Shown: in pieces, positions 31,646 to 60,191 of the stretch | Layout: each line of letters opens with the position of its first letter | Position numbering within the stretch: position 1 is the first letter of the stretch | From: Liolophura sinensis | Lineage: Eukaryota; Mollusca; Polyplacophora; Chitonida; Chitonidae | NCBI RefSeq assembly: GCF_032854445.1 | Contig: NC_088301.1 | Location: 56,368,512-56,432,511, forward strand | Direction: 5' to 3' | DNA length: 64,000 nt | The notes under the pieces: generated by a model | What the model saw: only the letters and a program-made list of their open reading frames with translations | Told to the model about the DNA's origin: nothing | The model's database searches: none | Program-made: the position numbers and the translations under genes

Positions 31646-32278
31646 CGTGAAGCACTGCAATCGTTACGGCATTCAAGACCCACTTTACGGCAAACATCAC
31701 GGAGCCAATCATATAATTCAGAAACTGACACCACGTGACACTTCAAATCTTGGAGGTAAATTCAGATCTGTGAAAGTGTGTCATTTGCTGCACAACTCCT
31801 TAGTCAGAACGTAGATAAATAATCAAAACAGCATTTAAGGTATGTAACTAAATGTACTTTACAAGTGATAAATGATAACACGCATAAAGTACTGAGTAGT
31901 AATTCAGCCAGCTATACGATCTCCCTCCTTATTCAACATTCTAACATCTACGAACCGAATGAATGTCAGAAATGTAAAATATGGAGGCAGTACATTTAAC
32001 GTTGTTGAATTAACTGAGTAGTTAGGACGTCATGTTCGATTAGGCTCATTGCACCGCCAGCTTAATAGTAGGGCTGTCATTAGGCATATTATCAAAGCCC
32101 TGTCTTATTGTATAAGCTTACCTTGAACACCTCTAGGTTTGATTGTTCAAAAGGTTGTTAGCGACTAAATCTGGGTTAAATCTGCCAACCCTGGGTTAAC
32201 TTGTACCCTAGGTTAAATTTATGTTGTTCAAAGCGGTTTTAGTTGCGGAATGTAACTCTGAAATCGATCAACACGATA
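31646..32278. promoter_or_regulatory. Shared head-to-head promoter region, MANBAL and plus-strand gene
   Basis: The 633 bp between the MANBAL start (minus) and the proposed start of the plus-strand gene (32279). Such spacing is typical of bidirectional promoters, but no TATA box, CpG-dense tract or initiator was convincing. The right part contains repeated GGGTTAAAT phrases that may belong to a mobile element. Confidence 0.4.
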
Positions 32279-32935
32279 ATGTCTCCGATTGACGGTAAGC
32301 CAAATAATCACATCTTCACCGTAGACCCGATATTAGAAGCATTTTTTCCTCGTAACTCTCCGAAGACTTCATTTGGGTCCATTTAAGAATTACAGCCCGC
32401 AGCTAAAGCGGTGTTAATGTTAACTATGGGTTAAATCAACTCTAACCCCAAGTTAACTTTACCACATTGATTAAGGATGGTTGAGTCTATCCAACACATG
32501 CAATAAAATGTTTTTTTTTTTTGTTCGGTTCGTTCCACCACCTCCATTTGCCTCCAAAACTCGCCCCTGAACAACTTTACAGACAATGAATTAAGGGCTA
32601 GTTTTCGATTTTCGATCACTTGGGTTTTCTTATTTTCCTGATTGATGATATTGTTTGTTAACTGCTAATTCAGCCCGGGAAAAATTTGCCTTAGCTTACG
32701 CTTGCTTGTTGGTAGGGGCTGTAGTAAAGACTAGATGGAGAGGGAATAGGGAATTATGTGATAATTTTTGTGTGGAATTTCCCTTTTCTATTTTTATTTC
32801 GTATTTAATACTTGGTAAGTAACACCACCACTAACCCACGGTTCATCAAGGTACATTAAACACCACCCACCTAGCTAACCCTGGGTTAAATTTAACCCTC
32901 CTTCAAACAACCGGGTCCTAGTGATTTGTAAAGAC
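32130..32935. repeat. Possible inverted-repeat element with GGGTTAA ends
   Basis: Left end: CTAGGTTTGATTGTTCAAAA...CTGGGTTAAATCTG...AACCCTGGGTTAACTTG (32140-32200). Right end, reverse complement: CTAGGACCCGGTTGTTTGAAGG...GGGTTAAATTTAACCCAGGGTTAG (32880-32930). Shared order CTAGG, TTGTT(C/T)(A/G)AA, GGGTTAA suggests terminal inverted repeats of a MITE-like element of about 0.8 kb. The ends are imperfect and no clean target-site duplication was found. The proposed first exon of the plus-strand gene (32279-32294) would lie inside it. Confidence 0.4.
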
Positions 32936-35900: not shown

Positions 35901-38900
35901 GTTGTGTTCATTACACCACATGAATTACATTTTAAATACAGAATGGGGACCTGTAGGTTGTGTGCCCTTGTCAGCGCATCACCTCCTACAGATATGACTG
36001 AGTTTGTGTTCATACACCACATGAATTACATTTTAAACATAGAATGGGACTTGTAGGTTGTGTGCCCTTGTCAGCGCATCACCTCCTACAGATATGACTA
36101 AGTTTTTGTTCATACAACACATGAATTACATTTTAAACATAGAATGGGGGACTTGTAGGTTGTGTGCCCTTGTCAGCGCATCACCTCCTACAGATATGAC
36201 TGAGTTTGTGTTCATACACCACATGAATTACATTTTAAACATAGAATGGGGACTTGTTGGTTGTGTGCCCTTGTCAGCGCATCACCTCCTACAGATATGA
36301 CTGAGTTTGGGTTCATACACCACATGAATTGCATTTTAAACATAGAATGGGGACTTGTAGGTTGTGTGCCCTTGTCAGCGCATCACCTCCTACAGATATG
36401 ACTGAGTTTGGGTTCATACAACACATGAATTACATTTTAAACATAGAATGGGGACTTGTAGGTTGTGTGCCCTTGTCAGCGCATCACCTCCTACAGGTAT
36501 GACTGAGTTTGTGTTCATACACCACATGAATTACATTTTAAACATAGAATGGGGACTTGTAGGTTGTGTGCCCTTGTCAGTGCATCACCTCCTACAGATA
36601 TGACTGAGTTTGTGTTCATACAACACATGAATTACATTTTAAACATAGAATGGGGACCTGTAGGTTGTGTGCCCTTGTCAGCGCATCACCTCCTACAGAT
36701 ATGACTGAGTTTGGATTCATACACCACATGAATTACATTTTAAATACAGAATGGGGACTTGTAGGTTGTGTGCCCTTGTCAGTGCATCACTTCCTACAGA
36801 TATGACTGAGTTTGAGTTCATACACCACATGAATTACATTTTAAATACAGAATGGGGACTTGTAGGTTGTGTGCCCTTGTCAGCGCATCACCTCCTACAG
36901 ATATGACTGAGTTTGTGTTCATACACCACATGAATTACATTTTAAACATAGAATGGGGACTTGTAGGTTGTGTGCCCTTGTCAGCGCATCACCTCCTACA
37001 GATATGACTGAGTTTGTGTTCATACAACACATGAATTACATTTTAAATACAGAATGGGGACCTGTAGGTTGTGTGCCCTTGTCAGCGCATCACCTCCTAC
37101 AGATATGACTGAGTTTGTGTTCATACACCACATGAATTACATTTTAAATACAGAATGGGGACTTGTAGGTTGTGTACCCTTGTCAGCGCATCACCTCCTA
37201 CAGATATGACTGAGTTTGTGTTCATACACCAAATGAATTACATTTTAAACATAGAATGGGGACTTGTAGGTTGTGTGCCCTTGTCAGTGCATCACCTCCT
37301 ACAGATATGACTGAGTTTGTGTTCATACACCAAATGAATTACATTTTAAACATAGAATGGGGACTTGTAGGTTGTGTGCCCTTGTCAGCGCATCACCTCC
37401 TACAGATATGACTGAGTTTGAGTTCATACAACACATGAATTACATTTTAAATACAGAATGGGGACCTGTAGGTTGTGTGCCCTTGTCAGCGCATCACCTC
37501 CTACAGATATGACTGAGTTTGAGTTCATACACCACATGAATTACATTTTAAACATAGAATGGGGACTTGTAGGTTGTGTGCCCTTGTCAGCACATCACCT
37601 CCTACAGGTATGACTGAGTTTGTGTTCATACTCCACATGAATTACCTTTAAAACATAGAATGGGGACTTGTTGGTTGTGTGCCCTTGTCAGCGCATCACC
37701 TCCTACAGGTATGACTGAGTTTGGGTTCATACTCCACATGAATTACCTTTAAAACATAGAATGGGGACTTGTAGGTTGTGTGCCCTTGTCAGCGCATCAC
37801 CTCCTACAGATATGACTGAGTTTGTGTTCATACACCACATGAATTACATTTTAAACACAGAATAGGGACTTGTAGGTTGTGTGCCCTTGTTAGCACATCA
37901 CCTCCTACAGGTATGACTGAGTTTGTGTTCATATACCACATGAATTACATTTTTAAACATAGAATGGGGACTTGTAGGTTGTGTGCCCTTGTCAGCGCAT
38001 CACCTCCTACAGATATGACTGAGTTTGTGTTCATACACCACATGAATTACATTTTAAACATAGAATGGGGACTTGTAGGTTGTGTGCCCTTGTCAGCGCA
38101 TCACCTCCTACAGATATGACTGAGTTTGTGTTCATACACCACATGAATTACATTTTAAACACAGAATAGGGACCTGTAGGTTGTGTGCCCTTGTCAGCGC
38201 ATCACCTCCTACAGATATGACTGAGTTTGTGTTCATACACCACATGAATTACATTTTAAATACAGAATAGGGACTTGTAGGTTGTGTGGCCCTTGTTAGC
38301 ACATCACCTCCTACAGGTATGACTGAGTTTGTGTTCATATACCACATGAATTACATTTTAAACACAGAATAGGGACTTGTAGGTTGTGTGCCCTTGTCAG
38401 CGCATCACCTCCTACAGATATGACTGAGTTTGTGTTCATATACCACATGAATTACATTTTAAACATAGAATGGGGACTTGTAGGTTGTGTGCCTTGTCAG
38501 TGCATCACCTCCTACAGATATGACTCAGTTTGGGTTCATACTCCACATGAATTACCTTTAAAACATAGAATGGGGACTTGTAGGTTGTGTGCCCTTGTCA
38601 GCGCATCACCTCCTACAGATATGACTGAGTTTGTGTTCATACACCACATGAATTACATTTTAAACATAGAATGGGGACTTGTAGGTTGTGTGCCCTTGTC
38701 AGCGCATCACCTCTACAGATATGACTGAGTTTGTGTTCATACACCACATGAATTACATTTTAAACATAGAATGGGGACTTGTAGGTTGTGTGCCCTTGTC
38801 AGCACATCACCTCCTACAGATATGACTGAGTTTGGGTTCATACTCCACATGAATTACATTTTAAATACAGAATGGGGACTTGTAGGTTGTGTGCCCTTGT

Positions 38901-41900
38901 CAGTGCATCACCTCCTACAGATATGACTCAGTTTGGGTTCATACTCCACATGAATTACCTTTAAAACATAGAATGGGGACTTGTAGGTTGTGTGCCCTTG
39001 TCAGCGCATCACCTCCTACAGATATGACTGAGTTTGTGTTCATACACCACATGAATTACATTTTAAATACAGAATGGGGACTTGTAGGTTGTGTGCCCTT
39101 GTCAGCGCATCACCTCCTACAGATATGACTGAGTTGTGTTCATACACCACATGAATTACATTTTAAACATAGAATGGGGACTTGTAGGCTGTGTGCCCTT
39201 GACAGCGCATCACCTCCTACAGATATGACTGAGTTTGTGTTCATACACCACATGAATTACATTTTAAATACAGAATGGGGACTTGTAGGTTGTGTGCCCT
39301 TGTCAGCGCATCACCTCCTACAGATATGACTGAGTTTGTGTTCATACACCACATGAATTACATTTTAAACATAGAATGGGGACTTGCAGGTTGTGTGCCC
39401 TTGTCAGTGCATCACCTCCTACAGATATGACTGAGTTTGTGTTCATATACCACATGAATTACATTTTAAATACAGAATGGGGACTTGTAGGTTGTGTGCC
39501 TTGTCAGCATATCACCTCCTACAGGTATGACTGAGTTTGGGTTCATACACCACATGAATTACCTTTAAAACATAGAATGGGGACTTGTAGGTTGTGTGCC
39601 CTTGTCAGTGCATCACCTCCTACAGGTATGACTGAGTTTGTGTTCATACTCCACATGAATTACCTTTAAAACATAGAATGGGGACCTGTAGGTTGTGTGC
39701 CCTTGTCAGTGCATCACCTCCTACAGATATCATTCAGTTTGTGTTCATACAACACATGAATTACATTTTAAACATAGAATGGGGACTTGTAGGTTGTGTT
39801 CCCTTGTCAGTGCATCACCTCCTACAGGTATGACTGAGTTTGTGTTCATACACCACATGAATTACATTTTAAACATAGAATGGGGACTTGTAGGTTGTGT
39901 GCCCTTGTCAGCACATCACTTCCTACAGATATGACTGAGTTTGAGTTCATACAACACATGAATTACATTTTAAATACAGAATGGGGACTTGTAGGTTGTG
40001 TGCCCTTGTCAGTGCATCACCTCCTACAGATATGACTCAGTTTGGGTTCATACACCACATGAATTACCTTTAAAACATAGAATGGGGACTTGTAGGTTGT
40101 GTGCCCTTGACAGCGCATCACCTCCTACAGATATGACTGAGTTTGGATTCATACACCACATGAATTACATTTTAAACATAGAATGGGGGACTTGTAGGTT
40201 GTGTGCCCTTGACAGCGCATCACCTCCTACAGATATGACTGAGTTTGGGTTCATACACCACATGAATTACATTTTAAACATAGAATGGGGACTTGTAGGT
40301 TGTGTGCCCTTGACAGCGCATCACCTCCTACAGATATGACTGAGTTTGGGTTCATACACCACATGAATTACATTTTAAACATAGAATGGGGACTTGTAGG
40401 TTGTGTGCCCTTGACAGCGCATCACCTCCTACAGATATGACTGAGTTTGTGTTCATACAACACATGAATTACATTTTAAACATAGAATGGGGACTTGTAG
40501 GTTGTGTGCCCTTGTCAGCGCATCACCTCCTACAGATATGACTGAGTTTGGGTTCATACACCACATGAATTACATTTTAAACATAGAATGGGGACTTGTA
40601 GGTTGTGTGCCCTTGTCAGCGTGTCACCTCCTACAGATATCATTGAGTTTGGGTTCATACACCACATGAATTACCTTTAAAACATAGAATGGGGACTTGT
40701 AGGTTGTGTGCCCTTGTCAGCGCATCACCTCCTACAGATATGACTGAGTTTGGGTTCATACACCACATGAATTACATTTTAAACATAGAATGGGGACTTG
40801 TAGGTTGTGTGCCCTTGTCAGCGCATCACCTCCTACAGATATGACTCAGTTTGGGTTCATACTCCACATGAATTACCTTTAAAACATAGAATGGGGACTT
40901 GTAGGTTGTGTGCCCTTGTCAGCGCATCACCTCCTACAGATATGACTGAGTTTAGGTTCATATACCACATGAATTACCTTTAAAACATAGAATGGGGACT
41001 TGTTGGTTGTGTGCTCTTGTCAGCACATCACCTCCTACAGATATGACTGAGTTTGAGTTCATACAACACATGAATTACATTTTAAATACAGAATGGGGAC
41101 TTGTAGGTTGTGTGCCCTTGTCAGCGCATCACCTCCTACAGGTATGACTGAGTTTGAGTTCATACAACACATGAATTACATTTTAAATACAGAATGGGGA
41201 CTTGTAGGTTGTGTGCCCTTGTCAGCGCATCACCTCCTACAGATATGACTGAGTTTGAGTTCATACAACACATGAATTACATTTTAAATACAGAATGGGG
41301 ACTTGTAGGTTGTGTGCCCTTGTCAGCGCATCACCTCCTGCAGATATGACTGAGTTTGAGTTCATACACCACATGAATTACATTTTAAACATAGAATGGG
41401 GACTTGTAGGTTGTGTGCCCTTGTCAGCGCATCACTTCCTACAGATATGACTGAGTTTGAGTTCATACAACACATGAATTACATTTTAAATACAGAATGG
41501 GGACTTGTAGGTTGTGTGCCCTTGTCAGCGCATCACCTCCTACAGATATGACTGAGTTTGTGTTCATACACCACATGAATTACATTTTAAACATAGAATG
41601 GGGACTGGTAGGTTGTGTGCCCTTGTCAGCGCATCACCTTCTACGGATATGACTGAGTTTTAGTTCATACAACACATGAATTACATTTTAAATACAGAAT
41701 GGGGACTTGTAGGTTGTGTGCCCTTGTCAGCGCATCACCTCCTGCAGATATGACTGAGTTTGTGTTCATACACCACATGAATTACATTTTAAACATAGAA
41801 TGGGGACTTTTAGGTTGTGTGCCCTTGTCAGCACATCACCTCCTACAGATATCATTGAGTTTGTGTTCATACACCACATGAATTACATTTTAAACATAGA

Positions 41901-44900
41901 ATGGGGACTTGTAGGTTGTGTGCCCTTGTCAGCGCATCACCTCCTACAGATATGACTGAGTTTGGGTTCATACACCACATGAATTACATTTTAAACATAG
42001 AATGGGGACTTGTAGGTTGTGTGCCCTTGTCAGCGCATCACCTCCTACGGATATGACTGAGTTTGAGTTCATACACCACATGAATTACATTTTAAACATA
42101 GAATGGGGACTTGTAGGTTGTGTGCCCTCTTCAGCGCATCACCTCCTACAGATATGACTAAGTTTGTGTTCATACACCACATGAATTACATTTTAAATAC
42201 AGAATGGGGACTTGTAGGTTGTGTGCCCTTGTCAGCGCATCACCTCCTACAGATATGACTGAGTTTCAGTTCATACACCACATGAATTACATTTTAAACA
42301 TAGAATGGGGACTTGTAGGTTGTGTGCCCTTGTCAGCGCATCACCTCCTACGGATATGACTGAGTTTTAGTTCATACAACACATGAATTACATTTTAAAT
42401 ACAGAATGGGGACTTGTAGGTTGTGTGCCCTTGTCAGCGCATCACCTCCTACAGATATCATTGAGTTTGTGTTCATACACCACATGAATTACATTTTAAA
42501 CATAGAATGGGGACTTCTAGGTTGTGTGCCCTTGTCAGCGCATCACCTCCTACAGATATGACTGAGTTTGGGTTCATACACCACATGAATTACATTTTAA
42601 ACATAGAATGGGGACTTCTAGGTTGTGTGCCCTTGTCAGCGCATCACCTCCTACAGATATGACTGAGTTTGGGTTCATACACCACATGAATTACATTTTA
42701 AACATAGAATGGGGACTTGTAGGTTGTGTGCCCTTGTCAGTGCATCACCTCCTACGGATATGACTGAGTTTGAGTTCATACACCACATGAATTACATTTT
42801 AAACATAGAATGGGGACTTGTAGGTTGTGTGCCCTCTTCAGCGCATCACCTCCTACAGATATGACTAAGTTTGTGTTCATACACCACATGAATTACATTT
42901 TAAATACAGAATGGGGACTTGTAGGTTGTGTGCCCTTGTCAGCGCATCACCTCCTACAGATATGACTGAGTTTGTGTTCATACACCACATGAATTACATT
43001 TTAAACATAGAATGAGGACTTGTAGGTTGTGTGCCCTTGTCAGCGCATCACCTCCTACGGATATGACTGAGTTTGAGTTCATACACCACATGAATTACAT
43101 TTTAAACATAGAATGGGGACTTGTAGGTTGTGTGCCCTCTTCAGCGCATCACCTCCTACAGATATGACTAAGTTTGTGTTCATACACCACATGAATTACA
43201 TTTTAAACATAGAATGGGGACTTGTAGGTTGTGTGCCCTTGTCAGCACATCACTTCCTACAGATATGACTGAGTTTGAGTTCATACAACACATGAATTAC
43301 ATTTTAAACATAGAATGGGGACTTGTAGGTTGTGTGCCCTTGTCAGCGCATCACCTCCTACAGATATGACTGAGTTTGTGTTCATACACCACACGAATTA
43401 CATTTTAAACATAGAATGGGGACTTGTAGGTTGTGTGCCCTTGTCAGCGCATCTCCTCCTACAGATATGACTGAGTTTGAGTTCATACACCACATGAATT
43501 ACATTTTAAGTACAGAATGGGGACTTGTAGGCTGTGTGCCCTTGACAGCGCATCACCTCCTACAGATATGACTGAGTTTGTGTTCATACACCACATGAAT
43601 TACATTTTAAACATAGAATGGGGACTTGTAGGTTGTGTGCCCTTGTCAGTGCATCACCTCCTACAGATATGACTGAGTTTGTGTTCATACACCACATGAA
43701 TTACATTTTAAACATAGAATGGGGACCTGTAGGTTGTGTGCCCTTGTCAGCGCATCACCTCCTACAGATATGACTGAGTTTGGATTCATACACCACATGA
43801 ATTACATTTTAAACATAGAATGGGGACTTGTAGGTTGTGTGCCCTTGTCAGCACATCACCTCCTACAGATATCATTGAGTTTGTGTTCATACTCAACATG
43901 AATTACATTTTAAACATAGAATGGGGACTTGTAGGTTGTGTGCCCTTGTCAGCGCATCACCTCCTACAGATATGACTGAGTTTGGATTCATACACCACAT
44001 GAATTACATTTTAAACATAGAATGGGGACTTGTAGGTTGTGTGCCCTTGTCAGCACATCACCTCCTACAGATATCATTGAGTTTGTGTTCATACTCAACA
44101 TGAATTACATTTTAAACATAGAATGGGGACTTGCAGGTTGTGTGCCCTTGTCAGTGCATCACCTCCTACAGATATGACTGAGTTTGGGTTCATACACCAC
44201 ATGAATTACATTTTAAACATAGAATGGGGACTTGTAGGTTGTGTGCCCTTGTCAGTGCATCACCTCCTACAGATATGACTGAGTTTGTGTTCATACAACA
44301 CATGAATTACATTTTAAACATAGAATGGGGACTTGCAGGTTGTGTGCCCTTGTCAGTGCATCACCTCCTACAGATATGACTGAGTTTGGGTTCATACACC
44401 ACATGAATTACATTTTAAACATAGAATGGGGACTTGCAGGTTGTGTGCCCTTGTCAGTGCATCACCTCCTACAGATATGACTGAGTTTGTGTTCATACAA
44501 CACATGAATTACATTTTAAACATAGAATGGGGACTTGTAGGTTGTGTGCCCTTGTCAGTGCATCACCTCCTACAGATATGACTGAGTTTGTGTTCATACA
44601 ACACATGAATTACATTTTAAACATAGAATGGGGACTTGTAGGTTGTGTACCCTTGTCAGTGCATCACCTCCTACAGATATGACTGAGTTTGGGTTCATAC
44701 ACCACATGAATTACATTTTAAACATAGAATGGGGACTTGTAGGTTGTGTACCCTTGTCAGTGCATCACCTCCTACAGATATGACTGAGTTTGGATTCATA
44801 CACCACATGAATTACATTTTAAACATAGAATGGGGACTTGTAGGTTGTGTGCCCTTGTCAGCACATCACCTCCTACAGATATCATTGAGTTTGTGTTCAT

Positions 44901-47900
44901 ACTCAACATGAATTACATTTTAAACATAGAATGGGGACTTGTAGGTTGTGTGCCCTTGTCAGCACATCACCTCCTACAGATATCATTGAGTTTGTGTTCA
45001 TACACCACATGAATTACATTTTAAACATAGAATGGGGACTTGTAGGTTGTGTGCCCTTGTCAGCGCATCACCTCCTACAGATATGACTGAGTTTGTGTTC
45101 ATCCACCACATGAATTACATTTTAAACATAGAATGGGGACTTGTAGGTTGTGTGCCCTTGTCAGCCCTATATAAGACTGAGGACAATAATAATTGATGCA
45201 TAAAGCCTTTGTTTTTTGTTTGAAGACCTCCTAAAACCAGCTTCACGCTCCTTCTCATACTGAATTGAAGATGGAAACACTTTTCTTTAAGGATGTAATT
45301 GTAAATGTATTTACGTTTGTTCCTTTTTTCTGGCTTTAGACTGCCCAGTAGGTTTGCTGGTGGACCTGAGTTTGCCCTCACCAGACCCCATGGGGACAGC
45401 CAGACCTACAATTACCATTGATGGCAATGCAGGGGAGACCAAGGATAATCCAGAAAACAGTAAGGAGGTGTATTAGTTACACACTGTTCATATCGCATAT
45501 GCCACCAGGGCTGTATCTAAGAGCCAATTTAATTGCGGAAATTGTTTGGGCTCCAAAACTAATGAAGCTGAATTAAAACTGACTAGTAAATATAACAAAG
45601 TAAGATGGTTTACTAATAAAAAGATAGGTTTTTGCACAATTTGTTTCGTTCAGTCTTAAAGTTCTCATTTAAAGTTGCAGTTTATGAAATCACAGTTACG
45701 AGGTCATCTTTAAAATTTGTGATCAGAACCTTTGATTTCTTTTTTCTTGACATGGCCCTCAAATGTTTGTAATTTGTATTCCATATAGATACAGTGGTTA
45801 AAGAGAATTTTGACAAAAAAATCAATCAGCACAAATCCAACTGAATTTTTACTGTTGTTTTAGAATAGCCATAGTGAAATTTCAGCCTCATGTGTGCATT
45901 TGTTGCCATTCAAAATTGGTAATACGGTTCTTGAAATTTTTAAAGAGGGTGGCTGTATAGATTTTTCAAACTTTTATAATTGAAGAAGATTTGAAAATGC
46001 ATCTTTTGCCAAAAATCTAGAGTATAGCCTTTTTAAGGTGCTTTTTTTTTTAATTGCACCCAAGAACACATAAGGTGTGAGGGCTTTCCCAGCAAGGAAT
46101 TGGAACGCTCATTACAATATGTGTAAAGCGCATCATACCAATACACTGAGTAACAAATACCTGAAAATCCATTATTCTACTTGTGTTCATACAACACATG
46201 AATTACATTTTAAACATAGAATGGGGACCTGTAGGTTGTGTGCCCTTGTCAGCGTATCACCTCCTACAGATATGACTGAGTTTGGGTTCATACACCACAT
46301 GAATTACATTTTAAACATAGAATGGGGACTTGTAGGTTGTGTGCCCTTGTCAGCGCATCACCTCCTACAGATATGACTGAGTTTGTGTTCATACACCACA
46401 TGAATTGCATTTTAAACATAGAATGGGGACTTGTAGGTTGTGTGCCCTTGTCAGCGCATCACCTCCTACAGATATGACTGAGTTTGTGTTCATACACCAC
46501 ATGAATTACATTTTAAACATAGAATGGGGACTTGTAGGTTGTGTGCCCTTGTCAGCGCATCACCTCCTACAGATATGACTGAGTTTGGGTTCATACACCA
46601 CATGAATTACATTTTAAACATAGAATGGGGACTTGTAGGTTGTGTGCCCTTGTCAGCGCATCACCTCCTACAGATATGACTGAGTTTGTGTTCATACACC
46701 ACATGAATTACATTTTAAACATAGAATGGGGACTTGTAGGTTGTGTGCCCTTGTCAGCGCATCACCTCCTACAGATATGACTGAGTTTGAGTTCATACAC
46801 CACATGAATTACATTTTAAACATAGAATGGGGACTTGTAGGTTGTGTGCCCTTGTCAGCGCATCACCTCCTACAGATATCATTGAGTTTGTGTTCATACT
46901 CAACATGAATTACATTTTAAACATAGAATGGGGACTGGTAGGTTGTGTGCCCTTGTCAGCGCATCACCTCCTACAGATATGACTGAGTTTGGATTCATAC
47001 ACCACATGAATTACATTTTAAACATAGAATGGGGACTTGTAGGTTGTGTGCCCTTGTCAGCACATCACCTCCTACAGATATCATTGAGTTTGTGTTCATA
47101 CTCAACATGAATTACATTTTAAACATAGAATGGGGACTTGTAGGTTGTGTGCCCTTGTCAGCGCATCACTTCCTACAGATATGACTGAGTTTGAGTTCAT
47201 ACACCACATGAATTACATTTTAAACATAGAATGGGGACTTGTAGGTTGTGTGCCCTTGTCAGCCCTATATAAGACTGAGGACAATAATAATTGATGCATA
47301 AAGCCTTTGTTTTTTGTTTGAAGACCTCCTAAAACCAGCTTCACGCTCCTTCTCATACTGAATTGAAGATGGAAACACTTTTCTTTAAGGATGTAATTGT
47401 AAATGTATTTACGTTTGTTCCTTTTTTCTGGCTTTAGACTGCCCAGTAGGTTTGCTGGTGGACCTGAGTTTGCCCTCACCAGACCCCATGGGGACAGCCA
47501 GACCTACAATTACCATTGATGGCAATGCAGGGGAGACCAAGGATAATCCAGAAAACAGTAAGGAGGTGTATTAGTTACACACTGTTCATATCGCATATGC
47601 CACCAGGGCTGTATCTAAGAGCCAATTTAATTGCGGAAATTGTTTGGGCTCCAAAACTAATGAAGCTGAATTAAAACTGACTAGTAAATATAACAAAGTA
47701 AGATGGTTTACTAATAAAAAGATAGGTTTTTGCACAATTTGTTTCGTTCAGTCTTAAAGTTCTCATTTAAAGTTGCAGTTTATGAAATCACAGTTACGAG
47801 GTCATCTTTAAAATTTGTGATCAGAACCTTTGATTTCTTTTTTCTTGACATGGCCCTCAAATGTTTGTAATTTGTATTCCATATAGATACAGTGGTTAAA

Positions 47901-50900
47901 GAGAATTTTGACAAAAAAATCAATCAGCACAAATCCAACTGAATTTTTACTGTTGTTTTAGAATAGCCATAGTGAAATTTCAGCCTCATGTGTGCATTTG
48001 TTGCCATTCAAAATTGGTAATACGGTTCTTGAAATTTTTAAAGAGGGTGGCTGTATAGATTTTTCAAACTTTTATAATTGAAGAAGATTTGAAAATGCAT
48101 CTTTTGCCAAAAATCTAGAGTATAGCCTTTTTAAGGTGCTTTTTTTTTTAATTGCACCCAAGAACACATAAGGTGTGAGGGCTTTCCCAGCAAGGAATTG
48201 GAACGCTCATTACAATATGTGTAAAGCGCATCATACCAATACACTGAGTAACAAATACCTGAAAATCCATTATTCTACTTGTGTTCATACAACACATGAA
48301 TTACATTTTAAACATAGAATGGGGACCTGTAGGTTGTGTGCCCTTGTCAGCGCATCACCTCCTACAGATATGACTGAGTTTGAGTTCATACACCACATGA
48401 ATTACATTTTAAATACAGAATGGGGACTTGTAGGTTGTGTACCCTTGTCAGCGCATCACCTCCTACAGATATGACTGAGTTTGTGTTCATACACCACATG
48501 AATTGCATTTTAAACATAGAATGGGGACTTGTAGGTTGTGTGCCCTTGTCAGCGCATCACCTCCTACAGATATGACTGAGTTTGTGTTCATACAACACAT
48601 GAATTACATTTTAAACATAGAATGGGGACCTGTAGGTTGTGTGCCCTTGTCAGCGCATCACCTCCTACAGATATGACTGAGTTTGAGTTCATACACCACA
48701 TGAATTACATTTTAAACATAGAATGGGGACTTGTAGGTTGTGTGCCCTTGTCAGCGCATCACCTCCTACGGATATGACTGAGTTTGTGTTCATACACCAC
48801 ACGAATTACATTTTAAACATAGAATGGGGACTTGTAGGTTGTGTGCCCTTGTCAGTGCATCACCTCCTACAGATATGACTCAGTTTGGGTTCATACTCCA
48901 CATGAATTACCTTTAAAACATAAAATGGGGACTTGTAGGTTGTGTGCCCTTGTCAGCGCATCTCCTCCTACAGATATGACTGAGTTTGTGTTCATACACC
49001 ACATGAATTACATTTTAAACATAGAATGGGGACTTGTAGGTTGTGTGCCCTTGTCAGCGCATCACCTCCTACAGATATGACTGAGTTTGGGTTCATACAC
49101 CACATGAATTGCATTTTAAACATAGAATGGGGACTTGTAGGTTGTGTGCCCTTGTCAGCGCATCACCTCCTACAGATATGACTGAGTTTGTGTTCATACA
49201 CCACATGAATTACATTTTAAACATAGAATGGGGACTTGTAGGTTGTGTGCCCTTGTCAGCGCATCACCTCCTACAGATATGACTGAGTTTGGGTTCATAC
49301 ACCACATGAATTACATTTTAAACATAGAATGGGGACTTGTAGGTTGTGTGCCCTTGTCAGCGCATCACCTCCTACAGGTATGACTGAGTTTGTGTTCATA
49401 CAACACATGAATTACATTTTAAACATAGAATGGGGACTTGTAGGTTGTGTGCCCTTGTCAGTGCATCACCTCCTACAGGTATGACTGAGTTTGTGTTCAT
49501 ACAACACATGAATTACATTTTAAACATAGAATGGGGACTTGTAGGTTGTGTGCCCTTGTCAGCCCTATATAAGACTGAGGACAATAATAATTGATGCATA
49601 AAGCCTTTGTTTTTTGTTTGAAGACCTCCTAAAACCAGCTTCACGCTCCTTCTCATACTGAATTGAAGATGGAAACACTTTTCTTTAAGGATGTAATTGT
49701 AAATGTATTTACGTTTGTTCCTTTTTTCTGGCTTTAGACTGCCCAGTAGGTTTGCTGGTGGACCTGAGTTTGCCCTCACCAGACCCCATGGGGACAGCCA
49801 GACCTACAATTACCATTGATGGCAATGCAGGGGAGACCAAGGATAATCCAGAAAACAGTAAGAAGGAGGTGTATTAGTTACACACTGTTCATATCGCATA
49901 TTCCACCAGGGCTGTATCTAAGAGCCAATTTAATTGCGGAAATTGTTTGGGCTCCAAAACTAATGAAGCTGAATTAAAACTGACTAGTAAATATAACAAA
50001 GTAAGATGGTTTACTAATAAAAAGATAGGTTTTTGCACAATTTTTTTCGTTCAGTCTTAAAGTTCTCATTTAAAGTTGCAGTTTATGAAATCACAGTTAC
50101 GATGTCATCTTTAAAATTTGTGATCAGAACCTTTGATTTCTTTTTTCTTGACATGGCCCTCAAATGTTTGTAATTTGTATTCCATATAGATACAGTGGTT
50201 AAAGAGAATTTTGACAAAAAAATCAATCAGCACAAATCCAACTGAATTTTTACTGTTGTTTTAGAATAGCCATAGTGAAATTTCAGCCTCATGTGTGCAT
50301 TTGTTGCCATTCAAAATTGGTAATACGGTTCTTGAAATTTTTAAAGAGGGTGGCTGTATAGATTTTTCAAACTTTTATAATTGAAGAAGATTTGAAAATG
50401 CATCTTTTGCCAAAAATCTAGAGTATAGCCTTTTTAAGGTGCTTTTTTTTTTAATTGCACCCAAGAACACATAAGGTGTGAGGGCTTTCCCAGCAAGGAA
50501 TTGGAACGCTCATTACAATATGTGTAAAGCGCATCATACCAATACACTGAGTAACAAATACCTGAAAATCCATTATTCTACTTTGCAATGTAGGATGTCA
50601 AAGTGGTCAGCCTAACTGAGTGAAATGTACTGATGGTTTCTGGTAAATCGTTGGTTGTTACTTGTAAATAAAATGCCCAGATTATGTTGTAAATCACTAA
50701 ATCCTGAAGATGACCTGAGTAAAGTGTTTAAATATTGATTCATTTATTGATTAATTTATTTATTTGATTGGTGTTTAAGGCATACTCAAGAATATTTGAC
50801 TTATACAACGGCGGCCAGCATTATGGTGGGAGGAAACCGGGCAGAGCCCGGGGGAAACCCATGACTATCTGCAGGTTGCCGGAAGACCTTCCTGCATACG

Positions 50901-53900
50901 GCCGGAGAGGAAGCCAGCATGAGCTGGACTTGAACTCACAGTGATTGCATTGGTGAGAGACTCCTGGGACAATACGCAGCGCTAGAGTGCTAACTGACTG
51001 AGCCACGGAGGCCCCTTGATTCGTGATGCTTGCATTCACATGTAATACATGTATCTTCTAAGTAACTTTCTCCATTATGCTAATGTATTCTCTATGTTGT
51101 TTAAACTATTTTACAACACCATTAGTATAAATTTGTTGTTTATTGAACAAAAATTGAGTTCTTGTCAGTGAACTGCAACTGTTTACTCTCCTACGTAACT
51201 ATTCACAGAAACGTTGAAGAAAGAATACAACAGTTCTGTGAAGAAACAAGCTTCAAGCAAGCTTGCAGTGGAAATAACATCTCCTGTGACATTTGTCAGT
51301 TCTCCTAAGATGAATCAAGAATCTCACCGGGGAACACATCAAGACAAAACCATTGAAGGTAGGCCCGTGCAATTATAAAGAAGTTCCACATGTGTACAGG
51401 GATTATCCTGGACAGATCTCTAAATGGGAGAAAAAAATGTGATATTTCTCTAAGTGTATGGGACATTCTAAAATTTTAAAGAGATATCTATTTCAAATTT
51501 CATTAAATTAAGTGTCCACCACAAACCAGAATCTTGCCACTATGTTTTTGCTCCCTGTATGTTTTAAAGATTTTTTCTGAGTGAGTGGAGCTGTTGTAGT
51601 TTTTTGATGATCTTTGACGAAACCTGCCATGTTATGGTGTTTGTGTTAACATAATTGGTTCCAATAGTCATGCTGTTCACCAGTTTCTCAGATCCACACA
51701 GTAAGCAAAACATTTCATTTTTCTTTTCGGCGTATTTTATCCTAGTTGCCGTACCGTCAAAACCCAAGGCGTCTGAAACTTCAAACTTTTTGTATCAATC
51801 TGCACAGAATAATGCCTTCAGAATATGCTTGCATAAACGCTTTTAATTAAGAAACATTACAATGCTTGTATCAATTTTTTAACATGTTGACATAAAATTG
51901 GAGTAAACTTTTTTTTCATTTTTTATGTTGCAGACTGGTCTCTAATCAATGTAGACAGTTTTAACTTGAGTGACTTTCTAGACAATTTGGTTCCAAGGTG
52001 AGTATGACAATACAGATTCCTTGAACCACTGTGCACAGTCTGTAATTGTGTTACAAACATAGTAAGCAATAGTTTCAAATTTCTCCTATTGTTAGCCTAA
52101 AACTTGTTTCGTTACCACATAATCCATACTGACTGACAATATTATGGTGGCAGGTTTGGGATCGACATTGGTGATAGAGCAAATTAAGTGACAGTAGGTC
52201 TGTACATTAGGGTATATATTATATAACCAAAATATATTCAGGCAGCCTTTTCAAACTTTTGAGCCCCTCTTTTTTTTTCTTTCTTCAATAAATGAGGTAA
52301 AGTAAATAATCTACATGGAGTATAATTTGTTTGCCATTTGTAGGAGATTTAAACATCAGCTGAAGTTTGTGATGAAATTCAGCAGAACTGTTTCCTAGAA
52401 AATTAAATAGCAGTGTAACCTATGAATTATGTAATTCACTACGGGCAAGGTCCCACTTCTCGTAGCTTCATGTGTCAAGTGTCACATTATGTCATAGCTC
52501 ATATGTGAAATCAAGGGTAATACAGTGGAGGCCTGTGGGACTGTAAAGGTACCCATTGAGAATGAGTGCTTTATACTCACCCAGCGAGCACAAATCAGTT
52601 AGGCAGACATTTGACATTTTTTTCTTCTGACAAGATTTCCTCTTCCTTCTAGTGCTGAGAAGGAAATTAAGAAGGAGCTTAGCCTTATAAAATCCCCAGG
52701 ACATGAAAGTTCGAAGTTGAATATTTCTAGCATAACAGGTGTGGAGAAAGATGAAGTGCCGAACAAAGAAGAGTCCAGTGCTAAAGATGTAAAACCAAAT
52801 GACCAGCTGACTCCCCCCACTCGTTCACCACATAAGACTGATCAGTCTGGCTCTGATAAACAGAAGGGTTCCTCAAGGCTGCGACGCAAAGGCACATTTA
52901 CCGTGAAAGATAAAGAGGCAACAGATGCCTTGAAGCAGACAGGTGAGATGTCTGAAAAAGATATTAACAGCACTTCCAGTTCTAAAGATTCTGCACCGAT
53001 TCCAGTGAAGAAGTCACTCCCCAAGCCCTCTGGCCTCACCCTGAAGTCTCTGAGTACCACCCAGAAGACAACTGATAAAGTCGCACAGCTGGACAGATCT
53101 CTAAATGGGAGAAAAAAATGTGATATTTGTCTAAGTGTATGGGACATTCTAAAATTTTAAAGAGATATCTATTTCAAATTTTATTAAATTAAGTGTCCAC
53201 CACAAACCAGAATCTTGCCACTATGTTTTTGCTCCCTGTATGTTTTAAAGATTTTTTCTGAGTGAGTGGAGCTGTTGTAGTTTTTTGATGATCTTTGACG
53301 AAACCTGCCATGTTATGGTGTTTGTGTTAACATAATTGGTTCCAATAGTCATGCTGTTCACCAGTTTCTCAGATCCACACAGTAAGCAAAACATTTCATT
53401 TTTCTTTTCGGCGTATTTTATCCTAGTTGCCGTACCGTCAAAACCCAAGGCGTCTGAAACTTCAAACTTTTTGTATCAATCTGCACAGAATAATGCCTTC
53501 AGAATATGCTTGCATAAACGCTTTTAATTAAGAAACATTACAATGCTTGTATCAATTTTTTAACATGTTGACATAAAATTGGAGTAAACTTTTTTTTCAT
53601 TTTTTATGTTGCAGACTGGTCTCTAATCAATGTAGACAGTTTTAACTTGAGTGACTTTCTAGACAATTTGGTTCCAAGGTGAGTATGACAATACAGATTC
53701 CTTGAACCACTGTGCACAGTCTGTAATTGTGTTACAAACATAGTAAGCAATAGTTTCAAATTTCTCCTATTGTTAGCCTAAAACTTGTTTCGTTACCACA
53801 TAATCCATACTGACTGACAATATTATGGTGGCAGGTTTGGGACCGACGTTGGTGATAGAGCAAATTAAGTGACAGTAGGTCTGTACATTAGGGTATGTAT

Positions 53901-56900
53901 ATATTATATAACCAAAATATATTCAGGCAGCCTTTTCAAACTTTTGAGCCCCTCTTTTTTTTTCTTTCTTCAATAAATGAGGTAAAGTAAATAATCTACA
54001 TGGAGTATAATTTGTTTGCCATTTGTAGGAGATTTAAACATCAGCTGAAGTTTGTGATGAAATTCAGCAGAACTGTTTCCTAGAAAATTAAATAGCAGTG
54101 TAACCTATGAATTATGTAATTCACTACGGGCAAGGTCCCACTTCTCGTAGCTTCATGTGTCAAGTGTCACATTATGTCATAGCTCATATGTGAAATCAAG
54201 GGTAATACAGTGGAGGCCTGTGGGACTGTATAGGTACCCATTGAGAATGAGTGCTTTATACTCACCCAGTGAGCACAAATCAGTTAGGCAGACATTTGAC
54301 ATTTTTTTCTTCTGACAAGATTTCCTCTTCCTTCTAGTTCATGTAAATAAATTAAGCTGGTTTTAGCATGATTGAAGTTAAAAGGAGTATTCACCTTAGA
54401 ATGCTATTCCAAATTTCAGTGGGGACAAACCTAGAAAAGAGTCTGAGAAATTTGTTCTAGGAATAGAAGCCGATGATGTTGCAGACAAGGTGAAGAGATG
54501 TGTCAGTATGCTCACTCAGTCCAGCAGGGAGGCAGAATCTACCACAGGTGACTTGTTGTGTGGTGCTGAGAAGGAGATTAAGAAGGAGCTTAGCCTTATA
54601 AAATCCCCAGGACATGAAAGTTCGAAGTTGAATATTTCTAGCATAACAGGTGTGGAGAAAGATGAAGTGCCGAACAAAGAAGAGTCCAGTGCTAAAGATG
54701 TAAAACCAAATGACCAGCTGACTCCCCCCACTCGTTCACCACATAAGACTGATCAGTCTGGCTCTGATAAACAGAAGGGTTCCTTAAGGCTGCGACGCAA
54801 AGGCACATTTACCGTGAAAGATAAAGAGGCAACAGATGCCTTGAAGCAGACAGGTGAGATGTCTGAAAAAGATATTAACAGCACTTCCAGTTCTAAAGAT
54901 TCTGCACCGATTCCAGTGAAGAAGTCACTCCCCAAGCCCTCTGGCCTCACCCTGAAGTCTCTGAGTACCACCCAGAAGACAACTGATAAAGTCGCACAGC
55001 CAAAGCCTGGTCACAGTGGAAAGCGCAGGCTTGTTAGGCCTGCCCGAAAATCTTTACAGGTTAGTAGATCTGTGCCAAAAGATTTTCGTGCTGCTCAGTT
55101 TGCATTTACATTATTTATATCTTTATTGTTTACATGTTGCCACTACATGGACACGTCATAGTTATTACTCACCAATAGTTGGTAAAACCTTTGTATCCTT
55201 CCATCATGCTGGCTATTGTCGGATAAGTGAAATATTCTTGAGTACTGTTTAAAACACCAATGAAATAAATAAATATAGGTGGTATTAAGTGAGGAGGCTG
55301 TAAGATTTCACCCCGTTGATATTTTTAGTTATAAACCTTTCAGATTTTTGATTGAAACTTTGTACATGTGCTTAGTATGTAGTAATACAGGGCATGTTTC
55401 TGTTTGAAGATGATTACTGAATTTATTTTTCAAGTGTCCACCCTTAAAAAATTTGCTGGTTAGGGGCAACTCCAAAATATCAACAAAAAAAAAGGGTGGG
55501 AGACAGAGAACAGAGATAGAGGTGAATATGGGAATCTGTTGAAGGCTGTACAATATTACCTCACGATGGTAGAGGATCTCAGCCAAACATAGTGGCAGAC
55601 AAGTATTTTGATTTACACTGTGTACCATTATTGGCTTACAAAAGTCACATAGAAATCATAAATACAATCAACAGAACCTGAAAAGTTTTATATTTTTTTT
55701 TTTTTTCAGTTTGAGTTTCTTTAGTTTCCCATATAGCCATATAAGGTTGTTACACTTACATGTAGTTGTGATGGTGATGTTGAGGTGCTTGAAACTCTAA
55801 CCTTGATCATGGCCTATCTTGCCCTTAGGGTTCCACTGTGGGTTCCCTGCAACAGTCCAGAAGTGTGCGGAAGAGCTTGGGGTCTCAAGGCACAGCAGAA
55901 AACTACAGTATCAATTCCGACTGCAAGGACACCTCCACAAGTTTTACCACATCTACCAACTTGTCCAAAGTCCCTAAATTCTTCCCCCAAAAATCTGCTC
56001 TTGGAAAACCAGTAAAGGTATTTAATTAAGCTGTCCATAATCTAGTAGTTTTCTTTGCACCCAGAAATTGACTGAAAGTATATGTAATAGACATTCTATC
56101 GTGGTTGTGTTAACAATTCACTGTTGAAACAGGTCTAAATATGCAAATGATAAATTCCAAATGGCACCCGGTAGGGGTTCTTGACCCCAAAGGAAACTTC
56201 AAGACTGTGCATGAATGTTTAATCAACGTCTTGCTCCTTAATTTGATGTCTTAATTGCACGGTGGCTTTAATTACGGAATCTGGGGTATTGGCAGTCATT
56301 GGTTGATTGTATGGTCAAGCTTTTTGAATAAAGAGGACTTCTCATATATGAACTGTTGATGAACTGATATCAACCCAGCTGAAAACCTTGCAAATCTTAC
56401 ATTTAAATGTACAGATCAATTGAATATTCAGCTAATAGCATACATGAAACATAGACAAAATGTGGACTGCTAAATTTTCTTTGCTTCATAAACAGTACAA
56501 ACCACTCTTTTAAGATGATCTTTTTATATTATTAACTGCGAGTCCACGATATATTGACCTTTCTCTTGCTTTTTGTAATCTTTTTTTTCTGATTTATTGG
56601 CAAGGCTTTGACTCTTGAAATTGAAGCTTTATATGTTCACCTTTGGAAGTTACATGTAATTTGTAAAATCTCAACAGAGCAGAAAGAAAATTATTTTTTA
56701 ATGTTACCTAACCGACCTTTTCATTGTCACGGTTAAGGCTGGTGCTGTGTTTGTGACCGCTGGTAAGGGGAGGAACCAGGAACAGAAGACGCTTGGCAGG
56801 ATGTCTTCTGGAGGCAATACTAGAGAGTCAGACAAGGTTGTGCACATGCCAACGACCGGCAGGAGATGTAGTTTGCAAATACCAGCCTCTTATACCTCTA

Positions 56901-57845
56901 TTAACGCTGACTTGCCAACACACAAATCTCAAGACCTGAAGAGGCGATCAGTATGCGACATTGCCAATTTCCCACACAAAAAAACATGCTTGCCATCAAG
57001 TGAATCTGAAGCCAAGAAAAGACGATCAGAATGCACTATGATGGAGCACCAAAGCAAAACAGGTAGAGCAGAAGTTTCAAGCTACTAAATTTTCTGTTGC
57101 CAGTGCATTTGCTGAGCATCGGTCAAGGATAGGTTTTGCCTTTTCGGCAGCTCTGATGTTCATAAATGTATATCTATGTTCCAGGCTACTCACCTTCTTT
57201 ATTCACTATTAAAAAAAAAAAAAAAAATTGTAAAACAATGTGTTGCCATAACAGCTGTTCCCTTTGGAGTTTCCATGCCAAGAAGATGGCTCTTTCAGTC
57301 GATAATGTATAAATTTGCAGCATCTGTCTCACCTGTAGTGCATCATTACTAAAATTTGTAGCACGCAGCAGTGAAACAGGTTTATACCTGTGTGTAAGCC
57401 TCCATCTGTTATACTGCTCTACCCTAGTTCCTCAACTTATTCACATACGAAAGAGCAACTTTCCGCATGACTTGTAGCACGTATTTGGATTTCAATCTAC
57501 ATAGAATGTTGTGAGAATGTTCTTGAATACCAATGTTGTAAACCTGCAAAAAGGTTGAAGAATTTCAGTATGTGAATTGTCTTATGATTGGTACGGCATG
57601 TGAAATATATATGTTGGTTATGCAGGAAATATCTATAGCACTTTGAAAATGTTTTCAATACAAAGTTGTCAGAGTCTGATTATTTCTCAATTGATATGTT
57701 TTAAAGACAAGTTAATATTTGTTTTTCAGGAACAGAAAACTGTACTGGTGCAGCTACTCCAGTCAAGGCTAAAAAATGCATTAACCCGAAGAAGTTAGTT
57801 TTGCCTAGCAAGATTCCATGGTGTTCGAATTCCAAGAGAGTGTGA
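32279..57845 (+). CDS. Unrecognised multi-exon gene with amplified exons, basic Ser/Thr/Lys-rich protein
   Basis: Proposed exons: 32279-32294 (MSPID), 33458-33529, 33761-33953, 35048-35091, a 120-bp exon present at 45340, 47438 and 49738, 51209-51358, 51934-51997 (or its duplicate 53615-53678), 54420-55059, 55829-56017, 56738-57062 and 57730-57845 ending VLPSKIPWCSNSKRV and TGA. Phases match at every junction, giving 642 residues with one 40-codon exon or 722 with three. Residues about 1-100 look folded (YLNVLHDLKIMQFHKLFNQM, YSLKAVLFLVKPLKLPSVYI). The rest is hydrophilic, rich in Ser, Lys, Thr and Pro, with basic clusters (RLRRKGTFTVKDK, GKRRLVRPARKSL), as in many chromatin or cytoskeleton linker proteins. 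I do not recognise the family. The first exon is the least certain. Confidence 0.72.
33340..33415 (+). repeat. Dispersed repeat, plus copy (inverted partner at 21.9 kb)
   Basis: CAGTGGCCATCTATAGGACACAG followed by ATAGCCAATCACTGGAAGC matches the reverse complement of 21885-21935 (CAGTGGCCATCCTTAGTACACAG, ATAGCCAATCACGGGAAGC). The match marks a short dispersed element present in introns of both CFAP54 and the plus-strand gene. Limits are approximate. Confidence 0.6.
35254..45165. repeat. 101-bp satellite array, about 98 monomers, intronic
   Basis: Head-to-tail monomers of 101 bp, each reading GGTTGTGTGCCCTTGTCAGC, GCATCACCTCCTACAGATAT, GACTGAGTTTGTGTTCATAC, ACCACATGAATTACATTTTA, AACATAGAATGGGGACTTGT. 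Monomers differ mainly at fixed variable positions (GTG/GGG/GAG before TTC, ATACAG/CATAGA, GCG/GTG/GCA after TCA) and rare single-base indels. The array fills the intron between the 35048-35091 exon and the first 120-bp exon. Frame-length 60-114 codon open frames in it (repeats of GLVGCVPLSAHHLLQI) are simple translations of the monomer; 101 is not a multiple of 3, so frames rotate and close. Confidence 0.98.
45166..46181 (+). repeat. 1-kb exon-bearing block, copy 1
   Basis: Non-satellite block beginning CCTATATAAGACTGAGGACA and ending CCATTATTCTACTT, with the 120-bp exon at 45340-45459 (TTTAG acceptor, AACA|GTAAGG donor). The exon encodes 40 residues starting DCPVGLLVDLSLPSPDPMG. Phase is 1 on both sides. 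Copy 1 appears identical to copy 2 over the block. Confidence 0.95.
46182..47263. repeat. 101-bp satellite between block copies 1 and 2, about 10.7 monomers
   Basis: Same monomer as the main array. It enters at the TGTGTTCATACAACAC position of the monomer directly after CCATTATTCTACT, and leaves at CCCTTGTCAGC into CCTATATAAG. Its last monomers carry the ACTCAACATG variant also found just before block copy 1, showing that satellite and block were duplicated together. Confidence 0.97.
47264..48279 (+). repeat. 1-kb exon-bearing block, copy 2
   Basis: Second copy, 2,098 bp downstream of the first, with the 120-bp exon at 47438-47557. I saw no difference from copy 1 over the block, including intron sequence, so the duplication is recent or homogenised. 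Confidence 0.95.
48280..49563. repeat. 101-bp satellite between block copies 2 and 3, about 12.7 monomers
   Basis: Same monomer and same entry and exit points as the preceding satellite stretch, but 202 bp (two monomers) longer. Order of variant monomers differs from the preceding stretch, consistent with unequal exchange inside the satellite. Confidence 0.97.
49564..50582 (+). repeat. 1-kb exon-bearing block, copy 3 (probable ancestral position)
   Basis: Third copy, 2,300 bp after copy 2, with the 120-bp exon at 49738-49857. It differs from copies 1 and 2 by an AGA insertion just after the donor (AGTAAGAAGGAGG) and a few substitutions (ATATTCC for ATATGCC, ACGATGTC for ACGAGGTC). After CCATTATTCTACTT it continues into unique intron, which marks it as the copy at the original right border. 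Confidence 0.93.
50733..51017 (-). mobile_element. SINE, Meta-domain type, full length, minus orientation
   Basis: Reading the minus strand: GGGGCCTCCGTGGCTCAGTC head, a GAGTTCAAGTCC B-box-like sequence, AGCTCATGCTGGCTTCCTCT, the AAGGTCTTCCGGCAACCTGC body, the CCCACCATAATGCTGGCCGC block and a CACCAATCAAATAAATAAAT tail. TTGATTC at both ends may be the target-site duplication. It lies in the intron before the 51209 exon. Confidence 0.88.
51408..53088 (+). repeat. 1.68-kb tandem duplication, first copy, with broken exon
   Basis: Starts at CTGGACAGATCTCTAAATGG inside the intron after the 51358 donor and runs to the CACAGC of the next coding exon, where it joins directly to the start of the second copy. 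It contains a good copy of the 64-bp exon (51934-51997, DWSLINVDSFNLSDFLDNLV). The following exon (from 52653) lacks its first 144 coding bases and has no donor: it reads into duplicated intron and stops at 53158-53160. Relative to copy 2 it lacks 226 bp (54338-54563). Confidence 0.92.
52653..53160 (+). pseudogene. Truncated duplicate of the 640-bp coding exon
   Basis: The frame runs from AG|TGCTGAG (SAEKEIKKELSLIKS...) to VAQ, then into intron-derived LDRSLNGRKKCDI and a stop. The 5' deletion removes exactly 48 codons and places the AG of a pyrimidine-rich tract (TTTCCTCTTCCTTCTAG) next to the remaining exon in the right phase, so splicing from the 64-bp exon is possible and would give a short isoform. 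More likely it is skipped or non-functional. Confidence 0.75.
53089..55000 (+). repeat. 1.68-kb tandem duplication, second copy (intact exons)
   Basis: Copy of 51408-53088, 1,681 bp downstream, with the 64-bp exon at 53615-53678 and the intact 640-bp exon beginning at 54420 (SGDKPRKESEKFVLGIEADD). It also has a 4-bp longer GTATGTATAT tract. The coding exon continues past the duplication end to 55059, so this copy keeps the functional gene structure. Confidence 0.9.
55203..55277 (+). mobile_element. SINE 3' end fragment
   Basis: Only the last 75 bp of the SINE family: CATGCTGGCTATTGTCGGAT, AAGTGAAATATTCTTGAGTAC and AACACCAATGAAATAAATAAATA. It lies in the intron after the 640-bp exon. Confidence 0.75.
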
Positions 57846-58862: not shown

Positions 58863-58865
58863 CAG

Positions 58866-59113
58866 TTAGTTAGCGTGCTAGCGCAGCGTAATGACCCAGG
58901 AGCCTCTCACCAGTGTAGTTACTGTGAGTTCAAGTCCAGCTCATGCTGGCATCCTCTCGGGCCGTATGGGGAAGGTCTGCCAGCAACCTGCAGATGGCCG
59001 TGGGTTTCCCCCGGGCTCTGCCTGGTTTCCACCCACCATAATGCTGGCTGAAATCATATAAGTGAAATATTCTTAAGTACAGCATAAAACACCGGTCATA
59101 TAAATAAAAAAAT
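58866..59113 (+). mobile_element. SINE, Meta-domain type
   Basis: TAGTTAGCGTGCTAGCGCAG head, GTGAGTTCAAGTCCAGCTCA B-box region, GGGAAGGTCTGCCAGCAACC body, CCACCCACCATAATGCTGGC block and AAAACACCGGTCATATAAAT tail. TTAGTACCA on the left and TTAGTGCCA on the right are a likely target-site duplication with one change. Confidence 0.87.
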
Positions 59114-59920
59114 AAGTTAGTGCCAATAGTAAAAATGAAATAACCTCTCTGAATATAATTTGCTGGTTTGAAAACTCTTTCATTAGAGATAAATGTATTA
59201 TCGATGAAGACAATTGGCACTGACTAATAAGAAGGGTTCAAACGAGGAACCTACGAATGGAATGAATGGCCATACTGGTGATTTTAAGTCCTGGGATATG
59301 TCCAATATCAGGAAAATGGCAATGGTATGCCTGGTCCCTCCTCTCATAAGTTATTAACAGTTTTAACCATTAGTCAGATATAAATAATGGTGACAACTGG
59401 GTACAAATCTATGTGCATAATATAGCTTAGATACATATCTCTGTTATAATCAAGTAAAATGTGATCAAATATACCTGTGATTTCCTGATACGTTAATTTA
59501 ATACCTGTGAAAAAAATAAAAATATTGTACATTAAGGTTAGTTTTGACCTTGTAAAAATCCTGTGTAAGGATCTGAAATGTTTGTGGGGAAAGTACTGAC
59601 AGGAACTCGTCCCTTTGTTGTAGGCCGGTTTGTGTTATTTAGTAATAAACAAGACTACAGGAAACTTCATAATACTTTTGCATTTTTCATCTCTGTTTTT
59701 GCCGTGAAAAGAAATAGTTTACTGATATCTGTGTATCTTCTATGTGTTTAACTCCAGTCCCATTTAGGTGAAAGCTTGTCAGAGCTATATTTCCATTATA
59801 GAAGTTTGTTAAGAGGGTTTCATGATATCCTACTGGCAAAAAGTTATACTTTGTTACCTATATTTCACCCTTGAAATGCACTGTCACATATAGTAGGTCT
59901 ATATGTGGTTCAAAACAACA

Positions 59921-60191
59921 TCGGGGGCCTCCGAGGCTCAGTTGGTTAGCGCGCTATCGCAGAGTAATGACTCAGGAGCCTCTCACCAATGCAGTCACTG
60001 TGAGTTCAAGTCCAGCTCATGCTGGCTTCCTCTCTGGCCGTACGTGGGAAGGTCTGCCACCAACCTGTTGATGGTCGTGGGTTTCCCCGGGCTCTGCCTG
60101 GTTTTCACGCGCCATAATGCTGGCCGCCGTCGTATAAGTGAAATATTCTTGAGTACAGCATAAAACACCAATCAAATAATTAAATAAATAA
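59921..60191 (+). mobile_element. SINE, Meta-domain type, best-preserved copy, 11-bp TSD
   Basis: Full-length element: head GGGGCCTCCGAGGCTCAGTT with A-box-like TGGTTAGCGCGC, B-box GAGTTCAAGTCC (60002-60013), central AGCTCATGCTGGCTTCCTCT, GGGAAGGTCTGCCACCAACC, CGCCATAATGCTGGCCGCCG, GTATAAGTGAAATATTCTTG and tail ACACCAATCAAATAATTAAA. A perfect TCAAAACAACA flanks it at 59910-59920 and 60192-60202. This is the best template for the family in the window. Confidence 0.93.

Follow-up and report, generated by a model that had tools for sequence, protein, structure and literature searches.

A probable recent in-frame triplication of a 120-bp candidate exon among copies of a private 101-bp tandem array

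Introduction

How does a short exon come to stand three times, in frame, between stretches of tandem repeats, and what would the repeats and the exon copies do to the encoded protein? This question is raised by the window analyzed here, a stretch of 64,000 nucleotides (positions 56368512-56432511 of contig C7, in an assembly of 609 Mb and 632 contigs) that contains 0 N. A preliminary description of the window had placed a 120-bp exon of a plus-strand gene at 45340, 47438 and 49738 and had linked its multiplication to recombination in the surrounding repeats. A literature search carried out without the species name returned no paper on this locus among those listed. In this study, we have examined the candidate exon and its predicted host gene, the structure of the array and the probable order in which the copies arose.

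Results

The window holds more than one gene territory. Two minus-strand ORFs, at 23710-23973 (E 5.7e-26) and 21236-21469 (E 1.1e-7), matched CFAP54_N above the Pfam cut-off, and a third minus-strand ORF at 31490-31636 matched UPF0239 (E 5.6e-12); we take the latter to be MANBAL-like, and the matches together point to an animal genome. The UPF0239 ORF and the start of the predicted plus-strand gene at 32279 are arranged head to head at a distance of about 640 bp, and a promoter common to both is possible. Five dispersed related copies, presumably SINE-like, were also observed in the window, at 9380-9611, 10588-10851, 50750-51016, 58863-59115 and 59924-60191; they are 76-88% alike and occur in both orientations.

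The 120-bp candidate exon was found on the plus strand at 45340-45459 (copy 1, phase 1 on both sides), 47438-47557 (copy 2) and 49738-49857 (copy 3). The three copies are letter-identical, and each is preceded by TTCTGGCTTTAG and followed by GTAAG, which bears out both the positions and the intact AG and GT splice sites claimed earlier. As in a tandem in-frame exon duplication, the copies are adjacent, share one orientation and have the same phase on both sides. When the 609-Mb assembly was searched at the protein level in six frames, the exon was matched in these three places only (three candidates, three scored), and no second haplotype of the exon locus was found in the assembly. Ranked with a home-made consensus matrix, the acceptor is 62nd among the 3610 AGs in the window, and the donor is 140th among the 3803 GTs in copies 1 and 2 and 224th in copy 3. 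The G+C content is 52.5% in the exon against 33.0% in the remainder of the block that contains it. For the codon score, training was restricted to the other predicted exons; it was 12.8 in the frame that the gene model requires and -18.1 and -10.4 in the remaining two. This score was attained by 14 of 2746 stop-free 120-bp windows, a null set that includes CFAP54 gene territory and is hence not purely non-coding. The exon peptide gave no accepted match in PDB. Within the repeated 40-residue peptide, LLVDLSLPSPDP is present, and an LVDL stretch presumably recalls the LI[DQ][LF] clathrin-binding motifs of GTSE1.

The predicted host gene extends from 32279 to 57845 on the plus strand. Its first coding exon (32279-32294) encodes MSPID plus one base (MSPID, then G) and ends in phase 1 at the donor GTAAGC; it was chosen as the top-scoring ATG-to-donor start with outgoing phase 1 within 31640-35258, and its frame fits. 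Downstream of the 120-bp exon, the model contains exon 3 (51209-51358; phase 1-1, 50 codons, frame fit, with a weak acceptor ranking 866 of 3610), exon 4 (54461-55059; phase 1 in and 0 out, with a strong ORF coding score), exon 5 (55829-56017; phase 0-0), exon 6 (56738-57062; phase 0 in and 1 out, acceptor weak at rank 781 of 3610) and a last exon with the stop codon (57730-57845), all predicted on the plus strand. The 5′ end of predicted exon 4 is uncertain: its acceptor at 54461 is weak (rank 1260 of 3610), and phase-compatible alternatives exist at 54485, 54548 and 54611.

With zero, one, two or three exon copies, the gene model yields predicted proteins of 464, 504, 544 and 584 aa, each with a single, terminal stop. 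The proposal that any number of copies from none to three is compatible with the frame therefore holds, while the lengths that accompanied it (642, 682 and 722 residues for one, two and three copies) are replaced by 504, 544 and 584. No further exon that could supply the 138 extra residues was found in the scanned predicted introns (32295-35258, 50584-51208, 51359-54460, 55060-55828, 56018-56737 and 57063-57729), and the earlier 642-aa model may have counted part of a second, broken copy of exon 4 that is described below. The predicted protein contains 13.5% S, 12.3% K and 9.1% T, and this richness in S, K and T suggests that it is disordered. Searches of the 504-aa prediction against Pfam, NCBIfam and PDB gave no accepted match, the only NCBIfam hit being below threshold, with an E of 0.12. 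Ten ORFs were also searched against Pfam, with a single LisH match below threshold (E 0.02) to an ORF in a different frame.

A second, separate tandem duplication was found in the same gene, where 51408-53088 and 53089-55000 are about 99% alike (98.66% over 1268 columns for 51408-52671 against 53089-54356, and 99.54% over 438 columns for 52652-53089 against 54563-55000). One product of this duplication is an incomplete, broken copy of exon 4 (52652-53088, plus strand); it lacks the exon's 3′ end, where it runs into intron sequence, as well as about 207 bp at the 5′ side. The copy scores as coding, and an inner piece of it (52700-52942) would be phase 1-1; its strongest acceptor, however, is in phase 2, whereas exon 3 ends in phase 1. 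Use of this asymmetric, cut copy is unlikely. It represents the opposite outcome to the symmetric exon triplication, in the same gene and only a few kb downstream.

Three stretches of a 101-bp tandem array, all given on the plus strand, accompany the exon copies. The main array, S0 (35259-45164), lies in predicted intron 1 and was described by TRF with a period of 101, 98.1 copies and 94% matches. S1 (46181-47262) lies between the first and second exon-bearing blocks, its left part S2-like and its right part S0-like, and S2 (48279-49562; TRF, monomers cut) lies between the second and third. The 118 full monomers that were cut (96 from S0, 10 from S1 and 12 from S2) comprise 95 distinct sequences, with a mean pairwise difference of 6.1 out of 101. 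The repeat had been called satellite DNA, a term that does not suit it in the genome-wide sense. Assembly-wide, 123 of the 129 monomer matches listed, these counts being lower bounds with common words skipped, fall in this array, and the repeat is private to the locus. A genome-wide satellite is ruled out; this is a single-locus 101-bp array with six weak single matches elsewhere among those listed, each 54-77 bp long and 77-85% identical. The six dispersed places are alike beyond the monomer, and in two of them a core motif recurs at a spacing of 158-162 bp. No 160-bp array was detected by TRF in one dispersed place (L002). The 101-bp array may have originated as a tandem repeat carried by a dispersed element.

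Block 1 (45165-46179, 1015 bp) contains exon copy 1, block 2 (47263-48277, 1015 bp) is identical to it, and block 3 (49563-50580, 1018 bp) runs on into unique DNA; all three are on the plus strand. The identical run around blocks 1 and 2 measures 1151 bp. Compared with these two, block 3 has one 3-bp indel just 3′ of the donor and three G/T substitutions. All three blocks start at the same monomer point. Blocks 1 and 2 also have a common end, the block-to-array junction TTCTACTTGTGTTCATAC, whereas block 3 ends in TTCTACTTTGCAATG, after which unique DNA begins. Since block 3 continues into unique DNA, it holds the original right border and probably occupies the original position. Further, because blocks 1 and 2 pass into the array and block 3 into unique DNA, the junction would mark the first duplication.

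The distribution of monomer variants was then compared among the arrays. The GAATTGCATTT variant stands at an equal distance from the junction in S1 (46402) and S2 (48500). In contrast, ATACTCAACATG occurs five times in the window: three times at the right end of S0 (43889, 44091 and 44899), twice in S1, within its right part (46896 and 47098), and never in S2. Of the 31-mers in S1, the ones also present in S0 but not in S2 lie at 46850-47200, and the ones also present in S2 but not in S0 at 46377-46416, without interleaving. When compared in the left register, S1 and S2 show 10 differences in the first 569 sites, as against 20 for S1 and S0 in the right register.

Discussion

Based on these observations, we think it likely that the locus carries a real and recent in-frame exon triplication in the predicted first intron region, that it arose in two steps (a duplication set by its breakpoint, then recombination in the array), and that the copies would by default all be spliced. 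In the first step, a tandem duplication would have connected the exon block, at its end, with a site within the neighboring 101-bp array, using about 2 bp of shared sequence, and would have left a stretch of array and an exon block ahead of the original block. In the second step, the third copy would have come from unequal crossing-over, or an equivalent misalignment of arrays, in which the upstream array engaged the newly formed one between the blocks. Unequal exchange between chromatids predicts a middle array that starts like the inter-block array and ends like the upstream one. Because S1 resembles S2 on its left and S0 on its right, it looks like the hybrid that unequal crossing-over predicts, and the second step is to this extent supported by the sequence. 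The same observation lends support to the idea, put forward in the preliminary description, that recombination in the array changes the number of exons.

In coding VNTRs, a sign of copy-number change by recombination between units is looked for, and the hybrid S1 provides one, with some caveats. S1 and S0 are not in exact right register: 43 mismatches were counted over the whole of S1, and a slip of one monomer is needed. S0 is also about eight times longer than S2, which favors matches to S0 only. Finally, the S2-only signal consists of one variant, and its motif, GAATTGCATTT, is also found once far to the left in S0, at 36326. A hybrid array could be imitated by gene conversion among the arrays. 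By the same array recombination, the copy number could shift again. An exon length divisible by three is expected by chance in one case out of three and is therefore no evidence of selection.

An assembly error is the less likely explanation. It would mean that there are fewer true copies and that allelic versions with arrays of different lengths were laid end to end, which we consider unlikely. Tandem arrays are prone to assembly errors, and the exon copies are set in just such an array; the identity of blocks 1 and 2 within the 1151-bp run would also agree with an artefact. An end-to-end error of some sort does occur elsewhere in this assembly, for another contig (C99) carries seven COX1 matches about 15.5 kb apart, with internal TGA codons, and probably represents a mitochondrial genome that was concatenated. 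Exons falsely gained within genes have been documented as well, and satellites showed the highest excess among repeats in that study (available text of PMC9516828). Nevertheless, the junction is present twice in identical form, and a single true block would give no block-to-array junction. The existence of this junction needs at least one real duplication, so that, judged from the sequence, at least one is probably real. Moreover, block 3 differs from blocks 1 and 2, and S1 and S2 differ in both length and variants. According to the available text of PMC9516828, false duplications are marked by read depth that is low or halved, by gaps that separate the copies, by linked reads that are discordant and by one-copy k-mers; as to gaps, the window is without N. 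A mixed history of two real copies and a false third is possible, given that block 1 equals block 2 exactly.

If the triplication is real, as we favor, the next question is how its copies are used. From what is established about splicing, symmetric exons that are identical and have equal signals would be expected to enter the transcript together. Because this exon is in phase 1 on both sides and its copies share their splice signals, one would by default expect all three to be spliced in, giving three identical 40-residue units in the predicted protein. It is also conceivable, although improbable in our view, that the duplication is real but that one copy is spliced per transcript or that the exon is skipped, as in cassette or mutually exclusive splicing. 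Tandem exon duplication is a known source of alternative splicing (work cited within the available text of PMC2394523), and the frame is kept here when all copies are skipped. However, the acceptor is the same in all copies and the donors are near-identical, the introns between copies are about 2 kb long, and the symmetric phase removes any reason of frame for exclusive use. Least credible of all, and very improbable, is that the 120-bp stretch is open only by chance and belongs to intronic DNA that was duplicated, not to a coding exon: the exon is without homologue or domain in Pfam, NCBIfam and PDB, and block parts outside it are about 70% like dispersed repeats, but the step in G+C content, the codon score in the right frame alone and its rarity among open windows, the rank of the acceptor and a frame that suits both predicted neighbors all argue for an exon.

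Returning to a real triplication with all copies spliced, we can speculate on its consequences. The private array may act as a working copy-number switch. Alleles with one, two, three or more copies would then segregate, splicing would take in every copy present, and a probably disordered protein would have more or fewer binding or phosphorylation sites according to how many 40-residue units it contains, each of them with LLVDLSLPSPDP; we offer this only as a tentative proposal. Should copy number vary, the locus would offer a clean natural experiment on how protein length comes to vary where non-coding tandem repeats lie beside a symmetric exon.

Among known systems, the KIV-2 VNTR of LPA works alike (available text of PMC11462820). 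For KIV-2, polymorphism and effect are established in many people, whereas here a single assembly is considered; the present locus also differs in the size of its units (2.1-2.3 kb), in encoding a 40-residue stretch with no known fold, and in that the part which recombines is a minisatellite present in every unit. The triplicate region of nebulin (NEB TRI) is similar in that coding exons are triplicated within a gene in highly similar copies, and intronic repeats have been suggested to drive recombination and copy-number change there (available text of PMC9109913). As described in that text, NEB TRI is built of 10-kb blocks that comprise eight exons each and contain Alu and LINE repeats, in contrast to the one 120-bp exon and private 101-bp array seen here, and copy-number variation has been demonstrated for it, whereas the present locus is read from one assembly. 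Vertebrate COE genes likewise have an exon duplicated beside itself, and the addition of a symmetric exon leaves the frame intact; according to the available text of PMC2394523, the COE exon needed a second step to become symmetric, while the exon described here was symmetric from the start and its copies are still identical. With regard to the array, the Helentron elements of the Pacific oyster (Cg_HINE) are dispersed mobile elements with satellite-like central repeats in short tandem arrays (available text of PMC7492417). The relatives of the 101-bp monomer in six dispersed places are reminiscent of them, but the array here, unlike those in the described Cg_HINE, has a 101-bp period and one locus. 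Internal tandem repeats also alter the structure of human genes (available text of PMC2812944).

Taken together, what distinguishes this locus from LPA KIV-2 and NEB TRI is the private minisatellite in each unit and a two-step history that can be read. Most coding repeats are read long after their origin; here, the copies are young enough for the steps to be read from the DNA.
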